From positions 1 to 64,000 of the forward strand of contig NZ_JADKYB010000013.1 of NCBI RefSeq assembly GCF_016918855.1: a stretch of DNA of 64,000 nt, read 5' to 3'. Every line of letters begins with the position of its first letter. Positions within the stretch are counted from its first letter, which is position 1. This document shows positions 3,728 to 9,380 of this stretch, piece by piece. The stretch comes from Actinacidiphila acididurans. GTDB lineage: Bacteria > Actinomycetota > Actinomycetes > Streptomycetales > Streptomycetaceae. The notes under the pieces were generated by a model that was given only the letters and a program-made list of their open reading frames with translations, had not been told where the DNA came from and searched no databases. The position numbers were made by a program, and so were the translations under genes.

Positions 3728-4324
3728 GTGCTCGCGATGAACTACCGCATCACCCTGCCGGCCGACTACGACATGGGGATCATCCGCCACCGGGTGGCCA
3801 CCCGTGGTCACGCGCTGGACGACTTCCCGGGGCTGGGCCTGAAGGCGTACCTGATCAAGGAGCGCGGCGTGGCCGGCTCGGCGGTCAACCAGTACGCCCC
3901 CTTCTATCTGTGGCACACCGCGGAGGGCATGAACTCCTTCCTGTGGGGGCCCGGATTCCGCGGCCTGGTCGCGGACTTCGGGCGTCCCGTGGTGGAGCAC
4001 TGGACCGGGCTCGCCTTCCGGCCCGGGCCCGCGGTGGCGGCCGAACCGCTGGCCGCCGTGCGCCGGGCCGAGCGGCTGGCGCCCGGCGAGGACCCCGCGG
4101 ACGCGGTGGCCCGGGCGGTGGACGAACTGGCCGCGGAGGCCGGGCGCCCGGGCGTCCACTCGGCGGCGGTCGTGATCGACCCGCGCCACTGGGAGCTGGT
4201 GCGGTTCACGCTCTGGGAGCCGGAGCCGACGCAGGTGCCCGACGAGCCGGGGGCCGAGCGCTGTCGCGTCCTGCACCTGTCCCGGCCCGGCCTGGACGCG
4301 CTCGGGGCGGGACGGCAGTGGTGA
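3728..4324 (+). CDS. DUF4865 family protein
   Basis: A 198-residue protein. The opening MNYRITLPADYDMGII followed by HRVATRGHALDDFPGL is characteristic of DUF4865, an uncharacterised family with a dimeric alpha/beta barrel-like appearance. GTG at 3728 was chosen because GAGGAAG lies 7 nt upstream; the ATG at 3737 would be too far away. The stop overlaps the next start by 4 nt (GTGA), so it is translationally coupled to the phosphotriesterase-like gene. DUF4865 genes often accompany TetR regulators, as here. Function unknown; a role beside a metallohydrolase suggests handling of a small organic substrate, but that is inference. Confidence 0.82.
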   Translation: MLAMNYRITLPADYDMGIIRHRVATRGHALDDFPGLGLKAYLIKERGVAGSAVNQYAPFYLWHTAEGMNSFLWGPGFRGLVADFGRPVVEHWTGLAFRPGPAVAAEPLAAVRRAERLAPGEDPADAVARAVDELAAEAGRPGVHSAAVVIDPRHWELVRFTLWEPEPTQVPDEPGAERCRVLHLSRPGLDALGAGRQW

Positions 4325-5265
4325 CCGCGGTCCGTACTGTGCTGGGCGACATCGCGCCCGGCGACCTCGGCGTCACCGACGCCCACGACCACCTCTTCCT
4401 GGCCGTTCCGTCACTGGCCGGGCAGGAACTGGACGACCCGGCGGCGGCCGAGGCGGAAGTCGAGGTCTTCGCCGGGCTCGGCGGGGCGGCGGTCGCGCAG
4501 TGGACGCCTTTCGGGCTGGGCCGGGCCGCGGGCCGGCTGCCGGCCATCGCGCGGGCGACCGGGGTTCATGTGGTGGCGGCGACCGGGCTGCACCAGGCGC
4601 ACCATTACGATCCGGCGCTGCTGGACCGGCTGAGCCGCGACGGCCTGGCCGCCTTCTTCGTGGCCGAACTGACCGAGGGCATGCTCGACGGCGACACCCC
4701 GGACGCCCCGCGCGGCACCGCCCGGGCCGGGATGATCAAGGTGGCCGGCGGCTTCCACGGCCTGGACGACCACGCCCGGCGGATGCTGACCGCGGCCGCG
4801 GAGGCACACCACGCCACCGGGGCGCCCATCGGCGTCCACCACGAGATGGGCACCGCCGCCCCGGACGTGCTGGACCTGCTGCACGGCCGGCTGGGCGTGC
4901 CGCCCTCCGCCCTGCTCCTGGGCCACCTCAACCGCTTCCCCGACCCCGGCCTGCACCGCGAACTGGCCGCCTCCGGCGCCTTCCTGGCCTTCGACGGCCC
5001 CTCACGCGCCCACCACGCCACCGACTGGCGCCTGCTGGCCGGCCTCGTCGCCCTCGCCGAGGCCGGCCACCTCCACCAACTCCTCCTCGGCGGCGACACC
5101 GTCACCGCCACCGCCCGGGCCACCACCGGCGAGGGCCCCGGCATGCCCTACCTCCTCCGCACCCTGCGCCCCCGCCTGACCCGCGCCCTGGGCGAGGAAG
5201 CCGCCACCGCCGTCTTCCGTACCAACCCGGCCCGCGCCTTCTCGGCCCGCTGGACCACGCCCTAG
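4321..5265 (+). CDS. Phosphotriesterase-like (amidohydrolase superfamily) metallohydrolase
   Basis: A 314-residue TIM-barrel metallohydrolase of the phosphotriesterase-related type. The metal ligands are visible: DAHDH (H22, H24), GMIKVAGG (the Lys carboxylated in binuclear members), GVHHEMG, LLGHLNR and the late LLGGDT. All key residues are present. The family includes lactonases and phosphodiesterases; substrate is unknown. GTG 4321 overlaps the DUF4865 stop; GTG 4318 is equally possible. The TAG stop (5263-5265) lies inside CCTAGG, the target of the IS481 insertion, so the downstream end is exactly preserved although an insertion sequence begins immediately after it. Confidence 0.83.
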   Translation: MTAVRTVLGDIAPGDLGVTDAHDHLFLAVPSLAGQELDDPAAAEAEVEVFAGLGGAAVAQWTPFGLGRAAGRLPAIARATGVHVVAATGLHQAHHYDPALLDRLSRDGLAAFFVAELTEGMLDGDTPDAPRGTARAGMIKVAGGFHGLDDHARRMLTAAAEAHHATGAPIGVHHEMGTAAPDVLDLLHGRLGVPPSALLLGHLNRFPDPGLHRELAASGAFLAFDGPSRAHHATDWRLLAGLVALAEAGHLHQLLLGGDTVTATARATTGEGPGMPYLLRTLRPRLTRALGEEAATAVFRTNPARAFSARWTTP

Positions 5266-6215
5266 GTGTATTGCCTCGTGAGGTTGGGGACGCGGCTGGC
5301 GGGTGGTTGGCCCTTCAGGGCGGTGTGTCCGCGGTGGTGATTGTAGGTGTGCAGCCAGTGAGGGAACGCTTCGCGTCGTTCGGTCTCCGAGCGGTAGGGG
5401 CGGGCGTAGGCCCACTCGTCGAGCAGGGTGCGGTTGAAGCGTTCGACCTTGCCGTTGGTCTGCGGGCGGTAGGGCCGGGTTCGCTTGTGGGCGATCCCGG
5501 CTGCCGCCAGCAGGTCGCGCCACTCGCGTGAGCGGTAGCAGGCGCCGTTGTCGGTCAGCACCCGCTCGACGGTGATCCCGGCGTGGGTGAAGAACGCCTG
5601 GGCCCGGGTCCAAAAGCCGGTGGCGGTCTCCTTCTTTTCATCGGTGAGGATTTCGCTGTAGGCCAGGCGGGAGTGGTCGTCGACGGCGGTGTGCAGGTAG
5701 CTGTAGCCGACGTTTGCGCGGGTCTTTCGGCCTGCCTGCCGGCCCAGGGCCTTGTGTCCGCCGCCGTCGGGGATGTTGCCGAGCTTCTTGATGTCGACGT
5801 GCACCAACTCGCCGGGACGGTCGCGTTCGTAGCGGCGTATGACGCGGCCGGTGGCCCGGTCCAGGTGGGACAGGCGGGCCAGGCCGAACCGGGCCAGGAC
5901 GCGGTGCACGGTCGAGGGCACCAGGTGCAGCAGGTGTGCGATGCGGGCCGGTCCCCAGCGGCGCAGGACGCGGACCTTGATGATCCGGCGTTCGGTGCGG
6001 GTCGGGGTGCGGCGCGGGCTGGTGCGCGGGCGGGAGGAGCGGTCGCCCATCCCGGCCTCACCGAACTGCCGGTAGCGGTCGGCCCAGCGCTGGGCCGTGG
6101 TCGGCGAGACCTGGAAGCGTTCGGCGGCCCGGCGAAGAGGCCAGCCGTCCTCGACCACGCAACGGGCCAGGCGCAGCCGTCCGGTCTCGGTCAAAGGTGC
6201 ATTACGGTGGGGCAC
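5262..6215 (-). CDS. IS481-family transposase
   Basis: A 317-residue transposase. The N-terminal helix-turn-helix (LRRAAERFQVSPTTAQRW) is followed by a second HTH and an rve-type integrase core, with the DDE triad readable as HVDIKKLG, VLTDNGACY and GKVERFNR. GTG 6215 (reading VPHRNAPLTE) is preceded by GAAAGG at a good spacing and was chosen over an upstream codon at 6254. The TAG stop (complement of 5262-5264) is not in the element proper but in the CCTAGG target duplication, so insertion into a CTAG site supplies the end of the gene. The product seems full-length and possibly active. Confidence 0.9.
   Translation of the reverse strand: MPHRNAPLTETGRLRLARCVVEDGWPLRRAAERFQVSPTTAQRWADRYRQFGEAGMGDRSSRPRTSPRRTPTRTERRIIKVRVLRRWGPARIAHLLHLVPSTVHRVLARFGLARLSHLDRATGRVIRRYERDRPGELVHVDIKKLGNIPDGGGHKALGRQAGRKTRANVGYSYLHTAVDDHSRLAYSEILTDEKKETATGFWTRAQAFFTHAGITVERVLTDNGACYRSREWRDLLAAAGIAHKRTRPYRPQTNGKVERFNRTLLDEWAYARPYRSETERREAFPHWLHTYNHHRGHTALKGQPPASRVPNLTRQYT
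5267..5292 (+). repeat. IS481 left terminal inverted repeat
   Basis: Begins TGTATTGCCTCG and continues TGAGGTTGGGGACG. It matches the reverse complement of the right end at 21 of 26 positions. It lies downstream of the transposase gene, whose last codons it encodes. Confidence 0.85.
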
Positions 6216-6308
6216 GAGGGCCTTTCGGTCAGGTGTAGACGTCGCAATCCACACCGAACCGGAAGGCCCTCACCTATTCAAGATCCCTCAGCCGAGACCT
6301 GGCTCACC

Positions 6309-6334
6309 CGTCCACAACCTCCCGAGACAGAACA
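6309..6334 (-). repeat. IS481 right terminal inverted repeat
   Basis: On the minus strand it reads TGTTCTGTCTCG then GGAGGTTGTGGACG, matching the left end at 21 of 26 positions and starting with the TGT typical of the family. It lies upstream of the transposase start, so the transposase promoter is probably inside or next to it. Confidence 0.85.
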
Positions 6335-6335
6335 C

Positions 6336-7043
6336 CTAGGCCATTCGGGGCGGCTCACCCAGAAAAGCCCGCACCGCCGCCAGGAAATCCGCCGGGCGCT
6401 CATCGTGGATCATGTGGCCGGCGTCAATCGTGATCAGGCGGGCGTCGGGGATGCGGGCGGCGACGCGGGCGAGGTCGCGCTGGTCGAGGTGGCTGGTGGG
6501 GCCGCCGGCGACGATCAAGGTCGGGGCGGTGATCGCGGCCAGGCCGGTCCAGTGGCGGGACGGTGGGGCGTTGCGCTGGCGGGCGATCGCGGGGACGACG
6601 CGCCAGTCGTACGGGGTGGGGCCGTCGGGGGCGGTGGGCACCGGGCGTGGCGGGTCGGCGGGGAAGGGGAGCGGGCCCTCCTCCAGGACGAGGCGGCGTA
6701 CGGCGGCCGGCCGGTCCATGGCGACCAGGGACGCCACCACCGTGCCCATCGAGTGCGCCACCACGGTGACCTCGGCCAGGTCCAGGGCGTCGAGCAGCGC
6801 CAGCACGTCGTCCCGCATCTCCTCGAAGAGGTACGAACCGGGGTGGCCGCTCTCCCCGTGCCCGCGCAGGTCCACCGCGAGCGTGCGCCAGCCGTCGGCG
6901 GCCAGCCCCGCGGTGACGGCCCGCCACGAGGTGCGGTCCTCGCCGAGCGCGTGCAGGAGCAGCAGCGGCGGGCCGCCCGCGGGACCCTCGGCCTCGCAGG
7001 CCAGCGTGATGCCGTTCACCTGGTAGGTGGTCAAGTCGCCCAT
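6336..7043 (-). CDS. Alpha/beta-fold hydrolase
   Basis: A 235-residue alpha/beta hydrolase. The oxyanion segment LLLLHALGED, the nucleophile elbow AHSMGTVV (Ser) and the late DAGHMIHDE (catalytic His) are all present, with a canonical DLRGHGESGHPG segment. ATG 7043 is used because similarity starts at about residue 5 of this form. Its TAG stop (complement of 6336-6338) falls in the right-hand CCTAGG copy next to the IS481 element. Before the insertion, this gene and the phosphotriesterase-like gene would have been convergent with overlapping stops. Substrate unknown. Confidence 0.85.
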   Translation of the reverse strand: MGDLTTYQVNGITLACEAEGPAGGPPLLLLHALGEDRTSWRAVTAGLAADGWRTLAVDLRGHGESGHPGSYLFEEMRDDVLALLDALDLAEVTVVAHSMGTVVASLVAMDRPAAVRRLVLEEGPLPFPADPPRPVPTAPDGPTPYDWRVVPAIARQRNAPPSRHWTGLAAITAPTLIVAGGPTSHLDQRDLARVAARIPDARLITIDAGHMIHDERPADFLAAVRAFLGEPPRMA

Positions 7044-7145
7044 GGGGTGAGCGTAGGCGCGGTGCCACCGGCTCCCGGACGCTGTTCGCGCTCGGGGCAA
7101 TCCCGGCCCGCGGCGGCGCGCGGGAAGAGCCCGCCGGAAGCAGAC

Positions 7146-9380
7146 CTACCGCTCCTCCGCCGCCTCCTGCCGCAGTTCCGCCATGCGCCGGTGCAGCGCG
7201 CGGGCCTCGGCGGTGCGGCCGAGCTGTTCCAGGCAGTCGGCCTCGTCCTTGCGGCTGCTGATGCTGTCGGGGTGAGCGGGGCCGAGGACGCGCTCGCGGG
7301 CCTCGGCGACCTCGTGGTAGTGGCCGAGCGCCGCGGGCCAGCGGCCGAGCCAGCCGAGGGCCACCGCGACCTCGCGCCTGCTGACCAGGGTGTCGGGGTG
7401 GGCGGGGCCCAGGACGCGCTCGCGGACGGCGGCCACGTCGCGGGCCTCGACCAGGGCCCGGTCCCACTGGCCGAGGCGGCCGAGGTTGACGCCGAGGGCG
7501 TGCCGGGCCCGCAGGGTCTCCGGGTCGGCGGACCCCGCGGTGCGGGTGCGGGCTTCGGCCAGGTCCTCGAAGAGCGCCAGCGCCTCGGCGGTGCGGTCCA
7601 GCCGGCCCATGCAGATACCCGTCTCGTAGCGGGCGGCGAGCGTGTCGGGGTGGTCGGGGCCGAGACCGGCGGCCCGCGCCCGGGCGATCTCCTGGTACGT
7701 CTCCAGCGCCTGCTCCCACTGCCCGGCCCGGCCGAAGGCGTGCGCGACCTCGAACCGCGTGACCAGGGTGTCCGGGTCGTCCGCGCCGAGCACTCGCGCG
7801 CGGGCCTCGGCCACCTCGACGGCCATCGTGAACGCCTCCTGGGCGCGGCCGAGCTGCCCGAGATTGAAGGCCAGGTTGTGCTTGCAGTGCAGCGTGTCGG
7901 GGTGCTGCGGGCCCACCGTGCGCTCCCGCGCTTCGAGCACCTCGCGGTAGACCGTGTGCGCCTCCTCGTGGCGGCCCAGCCGCTCCATGGCGAAGGCCGC
8001 CTCGTGGCGGGCCGCGAGCGTGGCGGCGTCGTCGGGGCCGAGCACCCGGGCGCGTACGGCCGCGACGTACTCGTGCAGCGGCAGCGCCTCCTCGAGCCGC
8101 CCGAGCCGGGTCAGGCAGCAGGCCGCCTCGTAACGGCTGGTCAAGGTGTCGGGGTGGTCGGCGCCCAGGGCGCGGTCGCGGCCGGCGGCGACCTCGGTGT
8201 GCAGGTCGTACGCCTGCTGCCAGCGGCCGGCCGCGGCGAGCGTGGTGGCCTCGGTGTGGCGGGCGGCGAGCGCGGCCGACACGCCCGGGGCGGCCTGGGC
8301 GGGGACGGCGCGGGTGGACCAGGCCCCGGTGATGCCCGGGGTGGGCGGCACGGCGATGCGGTGGGCGCGGGTGGAGTGGGCGAGGGCGCCGGTGGTCAGG
8401 CCGCTGGCCCAGGCCGGCACCGGGGCGGGCGACTGATAAGGCGGCGTGCCGGCGGCGGCCCGCATCGCCTTGAGCCGGCCGCACACGTCGGCGGCGCTCT
8501 GCGGCCGGTCCTCGGGGTCCTTCGCGAGCAGGTCCAGGATCAGGCGCTCGAGGTCGGCGGGCAGATCGGGGCGCTTGCCGCGCGGCGGCTCGGGCGGGGT
8601 GTCGCGGTGGCCGACCAGGACGGCCCAGGCGTCGCCGAGGTCGAACGGCGCGGCGCCGGTGGCCAGTTCGTAGAGCACGCAGCCCAGCGAGTACAGGTCG
8701 CTGCGGTGGTCGACCCCCGAGCCGCCGATCTGCTCCGGCGACATGTAGTTGGGCGTGCCCATGGCGACGCCGGGACCGGTCAGCCGGGAGCTGAAGCCGA
8801 TGTCGTGACCGAGCCGGGCGATGCCGAAGTCGCAGATCTTCACCGAGCCGTCGGTGAGCCGGATGATGTTGGCCGGTTTCAGATCACGGTGCACGATGCC
8901 CTGGCCATGGGTGTACGCGAGCGCCGCCGCGACCTGTTCGGCGATGTCGGCGATGTCGGGGACGGGCAGCGGCTGGCGGCGGGCGTCGTCGAGCACCTGG
9001 AGCAGGTTGCGCCCGTCGAGCAGTTCCATCACCAGGAACAGCACTCCGTCGTGCTCGCCGAAGTCGTGCACCACCGTGATGCCGCGGTGCTGGAGGGAGG
9101 CGGCGACCCGGGCCTCACGGCGGAAGCGTTCCTGGACCATGCGGGTGAAGGTGGTGTCGTGGGCGCGCCCGGTGACCGGATTCAGGCACTTGACGGCGAC
9201 CCGGCGGCCCAGCGCCTCGTCCAGCGCGCGCCAGACCTCGCCCATCCCGCCCCGGCCGATCAGTTCCAGCAGCCGGTACCTGCCCTGGACGAGGGTGCCC
9301 CCGTCGCCCTCGTCACCTGCCGCGGACCCGGGCACTGCCGGGTCCGTACTGTGGTGTCCGCCGTTGTCTCCAGCCGCCAT
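7146..9380 (-). CDS. Ser/Thr protein kinase with C-terminal TPR repeats
   Basis: A 744-residue protein. The N-terminal kinase domain (about 34-300) has the glycine loop GRGGMGEV (42-49), VAVK (Lys64), HRDLKPAN (catalytic Asp166), DFG (Asp184) and a SPEQ version of the APE motif. A Pro/Ala-rich linker leads to eight or nine tetratricopeptide repeats of about 42 residues, each marked by a G-x-x-HPDTL segment (about 375-740). No transmembrane helix or PASTA domain is seen, so unlike PknB-type kinases it is likely cytosolic, with the TPR array selecting partners or substrates. ATG 9380 is the natural start. It stands alone between the hydrolase and the oxygenase gene. Confidence 0.92.
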   Translation of the reverse strand: MAAGDNGGHHSTDPAVPGSAAGDEGDGGTLVQGRYRLLELIGRGGMGEVWRALDEALGRRVAVKCLNPVTGRAHDTTFTRMVQERFRREARVAASLQHRGITVVHDFGEHDGVLFLVMELLDGRNLLQVLDDARRQPLPVPDIADIAEQVAAALAYTHGQGIVHRDLKPANIIRLTDGSVKICDFGIARLGHDIGFSSRLTGPGVAMGTPNYMSPEQIGGSGVDHRSDLYSLGCVLYELATGAAPFDLGDAWAVLVGHRDTPPEPPRGKRPDLPADLERLILDLLAKDPEDRPQSAADVCGRLKAMRAAAGTPPYQSPAPVPAWASGLTTGALAHSTRAHRIAVPPTPGITGAWSTRAVPAQAAPGVSAALAARHTEATTLAAAGRWQQAYDLHTEVAAGRDRALGADHPDTLTSRYEAACCLTRLGRLEEALPLHEYVAAVRARVLGPDDAATLAARHEAAFAMERLGRHEEAHTVYREVLEARERTVGPQHPDTLHCKHNLAFNLGQLGRAQEAFTMAVEVAEARARVLGADDPDTLVTRFEVAHAFGRAGQWEQALETYQEIARARAAGLGPDHPDTLAARYETGICMGRLDRTAEALALFEDLAEARTRTAGSADPETLRARHALGVNLGRLGQWDRALVEARDVAAVRERVLGPAHPDTLVSRREVAVALGWLGRWPAALGHYHEVAEARERVLGPAHPDSISSRKDEADCLEQLGRTAEARALHRRMAELRQEAAEER

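Follow-up and report, generated by a model that had tools for sequence, protein, structure and literature searches.

An IS481-family insertion sequence on a CTAG palindrome shared by two convergent stop codons in Actinacidiphila acididurans, and the frequency of such landings among related copies

The stretch of DNA analysed here (the window) comprises the first 64,000 nucleotides of contig NZ_JADKYB010000013.1 of Actinacidiphila acididurans, in which an insertion sequence of the IS481 family lies between a phosphotriesterase-family gene and an alpha/beta hydrolase gene of opposite orientation. It is very probable (roughly 0.88) that this is an ordinary IS481-family element which sits at a CTAG-centred palindrome, borrows the TAG of its target to end its transposase gene, has left the stops of both neighbours in place, and belongs to a family in which landings at stop codons are common. 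The features that carry this reading are the following:

4318..5265, plus strand: phosphotriesterase-family gene (Pfam PTE, E 1.4e-33), its TAG retained in the left duplication
5261..5266: target duplication, left copy CCTAGG, carrying the phosphotriesterase-like TAG (plus strand, 5263-5265) and the transposase TAG (minus strand, 5264-5262)
5267..6334, minus strand: IS481-family insertion sequence of 1,068 bp, with terminal inverted repeats TGT...ACA and an NCBIfam match
5262..6254, minus strand: IS481 transposase, 330 amino acids plus stop, a single open frame for which the target supplies the stop and the rest of the last codon
6335..6340: target duplication, right copy CCTAGG, carrying the alpha/beta hydrolase TAG (minus strand, 6338-6336)
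6336..7043, minus strand: alpha/beta hydrolase gene, its TAG retained in the right duplication

A base-by-base check of the frames revealed that the left gene finishes with CCC TAG within the left hexamer and the hydrolase with GCC TAG within the right one, and that the opposite strand of the left hexamer gives the transposase its TAG (complement of 5262-5264). Every base of the three stops described in a preliminary description of this DNA (5263-5265 and the complements of 5262-5264 and 6336-6338) checks out. That description had placed the element at 5261-6340; the site is correct, but the element proper occupies 5267-6334, the longer span counting both copies of the duplication. The two CCTAGG hexamers are the only ones in the window, where 6.6 would be expected by chance. 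Past their TAG, the frames of the phosphotriesterase-like gene, the transposase and the hydrolase would extend by 24, 37 and 15 codons, respectively.

When the flanks are joined in silico, a single CCTAGG with both overlapping convergent stops results, and from the duplication we infer that the pre-insertion site was one such hexamer holding both stops. As both convergent stops lie within the duplicated piece, each neighbour retains a full copy of its stop, as in IS481 members that spare target genes at stops. Judged from the sequence, the insertion leaves the protein sequence of each neighbour unaltered, and the earlier claim that entry at a stop would be harmless to the neighbouring frames holds to this extent.

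Related copies were collected in two sets. The first comprised 163 matches, from which 11 that were partial or off a contig end were dropped, leaving 152 full-length copies; L126 (named Nocardia wallacei) was kept outside the joining. Restriction to perfect 6-bp duplications gave 102 copies, 97 after removal of five duplicates, and 94 (92 at CTAG, two at TTAG) once three short-flank insertions had been removed. The second, more distant set (59–71% identity in tblastn) comprised 40 loci, of which 27 passed the duplication rule, five copies of one genome were added late and eight were left out. The five late copies had missed only the inverted-repeat score, by one, and were added after that was seen; three of them are at stops, one is inside a gene and one is between genes. 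Of the resulting 32 copies, the 30 at CTAG were counted; the two at other tetramers comprise one at a stop and one not. Genes were called with a simple purpose-written gene finder, which recovered the expected genes around the element; its codon-training cut of 0.85 was reduced to 0.78 when the second set was analysed. Three predictions had been fixed before the second set was obtained, and neither the late addition nor the lowered cut was among them. Control CTAG sites less than 300 bases from the end of a locus were excluded.

The element inserts at a palindromic CTAG-centred target, duplicating NCTAGN, and the sequence shows that the transposase frame, having no stop of its own, continues past the terminal repeat until a TAG (rarely TAA) in the duplication ends it. 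The element ends in ...ACA, and its final A together with two bases of the duplication forms the last codon, followed by TAG; the host target therefore writes the last residue of the transposase, which in 97 insertions is Thr (50), Ser (24), Ile (12) or Asn (11). The in-frame stop had served as a landmark in locating these 97 insertions, on which the gene-context counts are based; since they were picked by their stop, their 97/97 agreement is circular and is no test of stop position. When the ends of first-set copies were found blind to the stop, TAG was present in the duplication in 100/100 copies, or 95/95 after removal of duplicates, and the targets of these 95 distinct copies (that of the window included) are 93 CTAG and two TTAG. 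In the second set the stop was found in the duplication in 31 of the 32 copies, one of these being a TAA at a CTAA target. The claim that the element needs its target to finish the transposase gene is supported by these counts. Among all 152 full-length first-set copies, with or without a duplication, 143 stop at the element end (142 with TAG, one with TAA). The stop is still supplied at the off-consensus targets ATTAGC, GTTAGG, GCTAAC and GTTAGC (L249, L120, L268 and L290, all with perfect duplications; three TAG, one TAA).

CTAG was found 501 times in 1.78 Mb of first-set loci, compared to 4,654 expected from base composition and 1,251 from a Markov estimate, so that it is about nine-fold and about 2.5-fold rarer, respectively. 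It is also over-represented at stops, as the preliminary description had held, 73/392 control CTAGs lying at predicted stops. Against this background, 47/94 first-set targets are at predicted stops (odds ratio 4.4, p 3e-9, control CTAGs from the same loci), and five settings of the gene finder gave odds ratios from 3.9 to 4.4. When a random CTAG was drawn per locus over 87 loci, the observed 42 at stops was reached in 0/5,000 permutations (expected 24.4); averaged per genome over 55 hand-grouped genomes of the first set, 55% of targets vs 21% of controls were at stops (Wilcoxon p 1.7e-5). The second set gave 14/30 targets vs 52/196 control CTAGs (p 0.03). With both sets combined and CTAG targets only, 60/122 targets vs 125/588 control CTAGs were at predicted stops, and overlapping convergent stops were hit by 8/122 targets vs 6/588 controls. 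Across the relatives surveyed, insertions at stop codons are clearly more frequent than neighbouring CTAG sites would predict.

Targets inside genes were found less often than control CTAGs, both in the first set (7/94 vs 73/392) and in the two sets combined (11/122 vs 113/588). The class "inside gene" is a generous one, as two of the seven first-set targets in it are at most 6 codons from a stop and one is at most 15 codons from a start; the targets of L206 and L242 lie 6 and 2 codons from the stop of a gene, and that of L240 lies 15 codons from the start of an IS110-type transposase gene. The first set has three further convergent sites, and five of the six genes at these are backed by protein families; the sixth, a 117-amino-acid frame at L118, has no such support, which makes that convergent site less sure. 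This check covered the first-set convergent sites; the second set's four are gene predictions throughout.

The survey also points to a target longer than the central tetramer. In the first set, G is present three bases before CTAG on each strand, G(-3), in 68% of target half-sites vs 33% in controls (p 3e-9). In the second set the figures are 32/60 half-sites vs 132/392 (p 0.004), or 27/50 vs 115/350 (p 0.004) when the five late copies are removed, and in both sets together 158/244 vs 389/1,176; these p-values are somewhat optimistic, since half-sites belonging to the same target, and copies sharing a genome, are not entirely independent of one another. On sequence grounds the target would be better written GNNCTAGNNC, a 10-bp palindrome longer than CTAG or NCTAGN, and the site in the window, GCCCTAGGCC, fits it on both sides. 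Palindromic outer hexamers are not preferred (32/92 targets vs 128/392 controls). The G(-3) motif is itself commoner at stops (65/146 control half-sites) than elsewhere (192/638).

Landings at stops are common in the family, and the statistics offer three reasons: CTAG is rare and concentrated at stops in these GC-rich genomes, the preferred target GNNCTAGNNC is itself more frequent at stops, and fewer insertions are found within genes and in divergent promoter regions. Part of the stop excess is accounted for by the motif and by gene context. After stratification by G(-3) half-site the Mantel-Haenszel odds ratio is 2.8, and with gene context also modelled (first set) the stop odds ratio is 1.96 (z 2.07). 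The excess is significant in tandem regions (21/43 vs 39/161, p 0.0025), and among targets between genes 7/38 are in divergent regions vs 90/245 controls. For the excess that remains, survival together with the sequence motif is the favoured explanation, and the pattern fits the removal of harmful insertions acting on a stop-favouring motif. The choice of CTAG had been proposed to be a safe-haven strategy. In this respect the insertions do exceed the background of CTAGs at stops, but the excess shrinks with motif and gene context, and an evolved strategy is not shown, as the same pattern could arise if harmless insertions simply survived.

Under evolved targeting, insertions would be actively guided to gene ends more strongly than the motif accounts for, either by the transposase itself or by a partner, for example the machinery that terminates transcription or translation. 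The persistence of the excess after stratification and in the gene-context model speaks for it, as does the observation that copies at least 99.5% identical to another are already at stops in 18/43 cases (vs 73/392 controls, p 0.001). However, the excess is not significant at targets with G in both half-sites (24/50 vs 25/68) or within convergent regions (25/34 vs 34/59). Of the copies that have no relative above 95% identity in the set, 26/44 are at stops, a fraction that is higher rather than lower, which is the direction expected from survival, although this difference is not significant (p 0.14). With respect to the transposase, the genes whose stops are hit show no clear strand bias (18 same, 25 opposite, four both). 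Taken together, these observations make evolved targeting unlikely. A related proposal, which is tentative and a little easier to accept, is that, in GC-rich actinobacteria, the GNNCTAGNNC preference and the borrowed stop serve as an intrinsic guide towards gene ends, allowing the element to spread largely without breaking host genes. Stop codons are hit by about half, and pairs of overlapping convergent stops by roughly one in fifteen, of the surviving insertions examined. Pure chance, in which an element targeting CTAG would land at stops at the background rate simply because CTAG is concentrated there, can draw on the 73 control CTAGs at predicted stops, three of which are overlapping convergent stops, but the fraction of targets at stops is 2.3 to 2.7 times that of controls (combined and first-set counts, respectively), and targets are enriched at overlapping convergent stops, so that this explanation is very improbable.

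Several observations weigh against the reading of an ordinary element that borrows its stop and spared a shared one. No exact empty site was found in relatives, neither with an 894-base joined query, among the matches listed from 35 genomes of the genus, nor with a 575-base query among 394 genomes of the family (8/394 matched at 1e-60; these genomes partly overlap the genus set). Only one genome, G024, gave a continuous match across the junction among the matches listed, at 72–75% identity; its genes are convergent, but their stops are separate, a TGA and a TAG 10 bp apart, with the TAG within a CTAG. The preliminary description had predicted an empty site with one CCTAGG and overlapping stops, and this prediction was not borne out by the sole continuous relative. 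Taken to the letter, homologues with separate stops are what that description had named as contrary to it, but at this identity G024 is too distant to represent the pre-insertion state. The stop excess of the second set is weak without the five late copies (11/25 vs 42/175, p 0.05). In one copy of that set, L277, the first stop (TAA) lies 20 nt inside the element, and the expectation that all transposase stops would be found in the duplication, which held for the 95 distinct first-set copies, therefore has this sole exception in the second set. Finally, nine of the 152 full-length first-set copies run beyond the element end, by 15 to 3,897 nt.

Some of these run-on copies have particular circumstances: L105 meets an assembly gap, the match of L089 ends before the element end, and L246 and L111 represent the same locus. 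A single off-target insertion within a terminal repeat would seem to underlie L187 and L188, and others look rearranged or mutated. Where the right end is readable, it is followed by something other than CTAG. In the pair L187 and L188 the copy is present close to each end of a single chromosome, with an imperfect duplication and TCAG or CCAG replacing CTAG, and its frame runs on for 36 codons. In a further group (L177, L178, L071, L073, L217 and others) CTAG is present at both ends and the outer bases differ, which might reflect recombination between copies. One genome (L213) has two oppositely oriented copies whose matched stretches are about 3.7 kb apart, a possible compound arrangement.

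Ten relatives hold both neighbouring genes in the fetched stretch, and none of them has overlapping stops, the gaps being 10 bp in G024, 19 bp in G005 and 216 to 1,007 bp in the others. Other members of the genus thus also have convergent neighbours at short distance, but among the loci examined the exact overlap is found only here. The absence of overlap in these relatives is what would be seen if the insertion or a later mutation had made the shared stop and the neighbours had earlier ended elsewhere, but the two duplication copies are identical, the joined flanks read straight into both stops and G024 is too far removed to show the state just before insertion, which leaves this origin scarcely credible.

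The ability of IS481-family elements to use a stop supplied by their target has been described before. IS481 of Bordetella pertussis reportedly has an NCTAGN target and a 6-bp duplication (a finding ascribed to Stibitz, 1998). In Rhodococcus equi, ISRe46/TnRErm46 has a CTAG target and an NCTAGN duplication whose TAG is the stop of the transposase (2019, PMC6794481), and for some target genes, e.g. parB, the stop is retained in the other copy, these genes being reported as not interrupted (PMC6794481). The element in the window shares with it the IS481-family transposase, the NCTAGN duplication, the borrowed TAG and the spared stop of the target gene. In contrast to the window element, TnRErm46 is a 6.9-kb transposon with cargo genes, and neither a convergent pair on one shared CTAG nor a count against background CTAGs was found for it in the accessible text (PMC6794481). 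ISLxc2 and ISLxx4 of Leifsonia xyli likewise belong to the IS481 family, duplicate NCTAGN and have their transposase stop within the host site (2008, PMC2516522), an arrangement that the same paper credits for other family members to Tauch 1998 and Chandler and Mahillon 2000; unlike in the present case, no statement on the stops of neighbouring genes was found in the portion available (PMC2516522). ISRme5 of Cupriavidus metallidurans, also of the IS481 family, resembles the window element in having no transposase stop inside the element (2016, PMC4803752). The proteins encoded by its four copies vary in length from 321 to 463 amino acids owing to the insertion site, and the lack of an internal stop was said to be common to other IS481 members, citing Redenbach 1996 and Tauch 1998 (PMC4803752).

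As the papers of 2008, 2016 and 2019 describe a stopless transposase with a target-supplied stop, the core mechanism is already known. The locus is a clean new example of it, with three genes on one palindrome; the element itself is ordinary, the family-wide stop statistic less so. Neither an earlier count of IS481 targets at stops against background nor an IS481 target longer than NCTAGN was found in the accessible portions of the literature searched, most subscription journals lying outside it. The survey gives the published trick a measured size, with about half of the insertions examined on stops, well above the local background, and it makes the evolution of gentle targets by mobile elements testable for this IS481 family. 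It also calls for caution in annotation, as such IS481 transposase genes end outside the element.

Three further features belong to the element itself:

5267..5292: terminal inverted repeat on the side of the transposase 3' end (arm minus duplication)
6309..6334: terminal inverted repeat on the side of the transposase 5' end (arm minus duplication)
6216..6271, minus strand: RNA hairpin immediately 5' of the likelier transposase start, kept in relatives

Members of the IS481 family are about 1 kb long, with one open frame and inverted repeats starting with TGT. At 1,068 bp, with one frame of 330 amino acids and TGT...ACA ends, the element shows these traits, and its 6-bp CCTAGG duplication fits the NCTAGN target of some members; copy-and-paste transposition is a further trait of the family. 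The inverted repeats start immediately inside the duplication, forming 32-nt arms, the 6-bp duplication included, that are 84% complementary. The transposase matches NCBIfam NF033577 (IS481 transposase) with 374 bits (cutoff 224, E 5e-112), as well as Pfam rve (integrase core) and LZ_Tnp_IS481 (leucine zipper). A catalytic triad of D154, D235 and E271 was assigned by motif (VDIKK at 153, TDNG at 234, KVERF at 269) and fits the typical DDE arrangement, in which 35 residues separate the second D and the E.

A GTG at 6215-6213 (residue 14) is the likelier start of the transposase. The hairpin just before it has a predicted energy of -40.5 kcal/mol (z -6.25), and in an alignment of 32 sequences, that of the window included, 96.9% of its pairs are retained. 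Covariation is modest: nine cells are changed on both sides (0/500 shuffles), but only two pairs (88/500). Hairpins that mask the start against outside transcription are known for other insertion sequences, and by analogy this one would mask the start region in transcripts coming from outside the element. A scan of 4900-6700, of a type that covers Streptomyces promoters poorly, gave no sigma-70-like promoter and no terminator, and no Rfam family was found at 4000-8000. Pieces that are 76–86% identical to the element at the DNA level, probably decayed relatives, are present elsewhere in the same genome (contig C11, 371864-372361 and 438608-438816; L002-L005).

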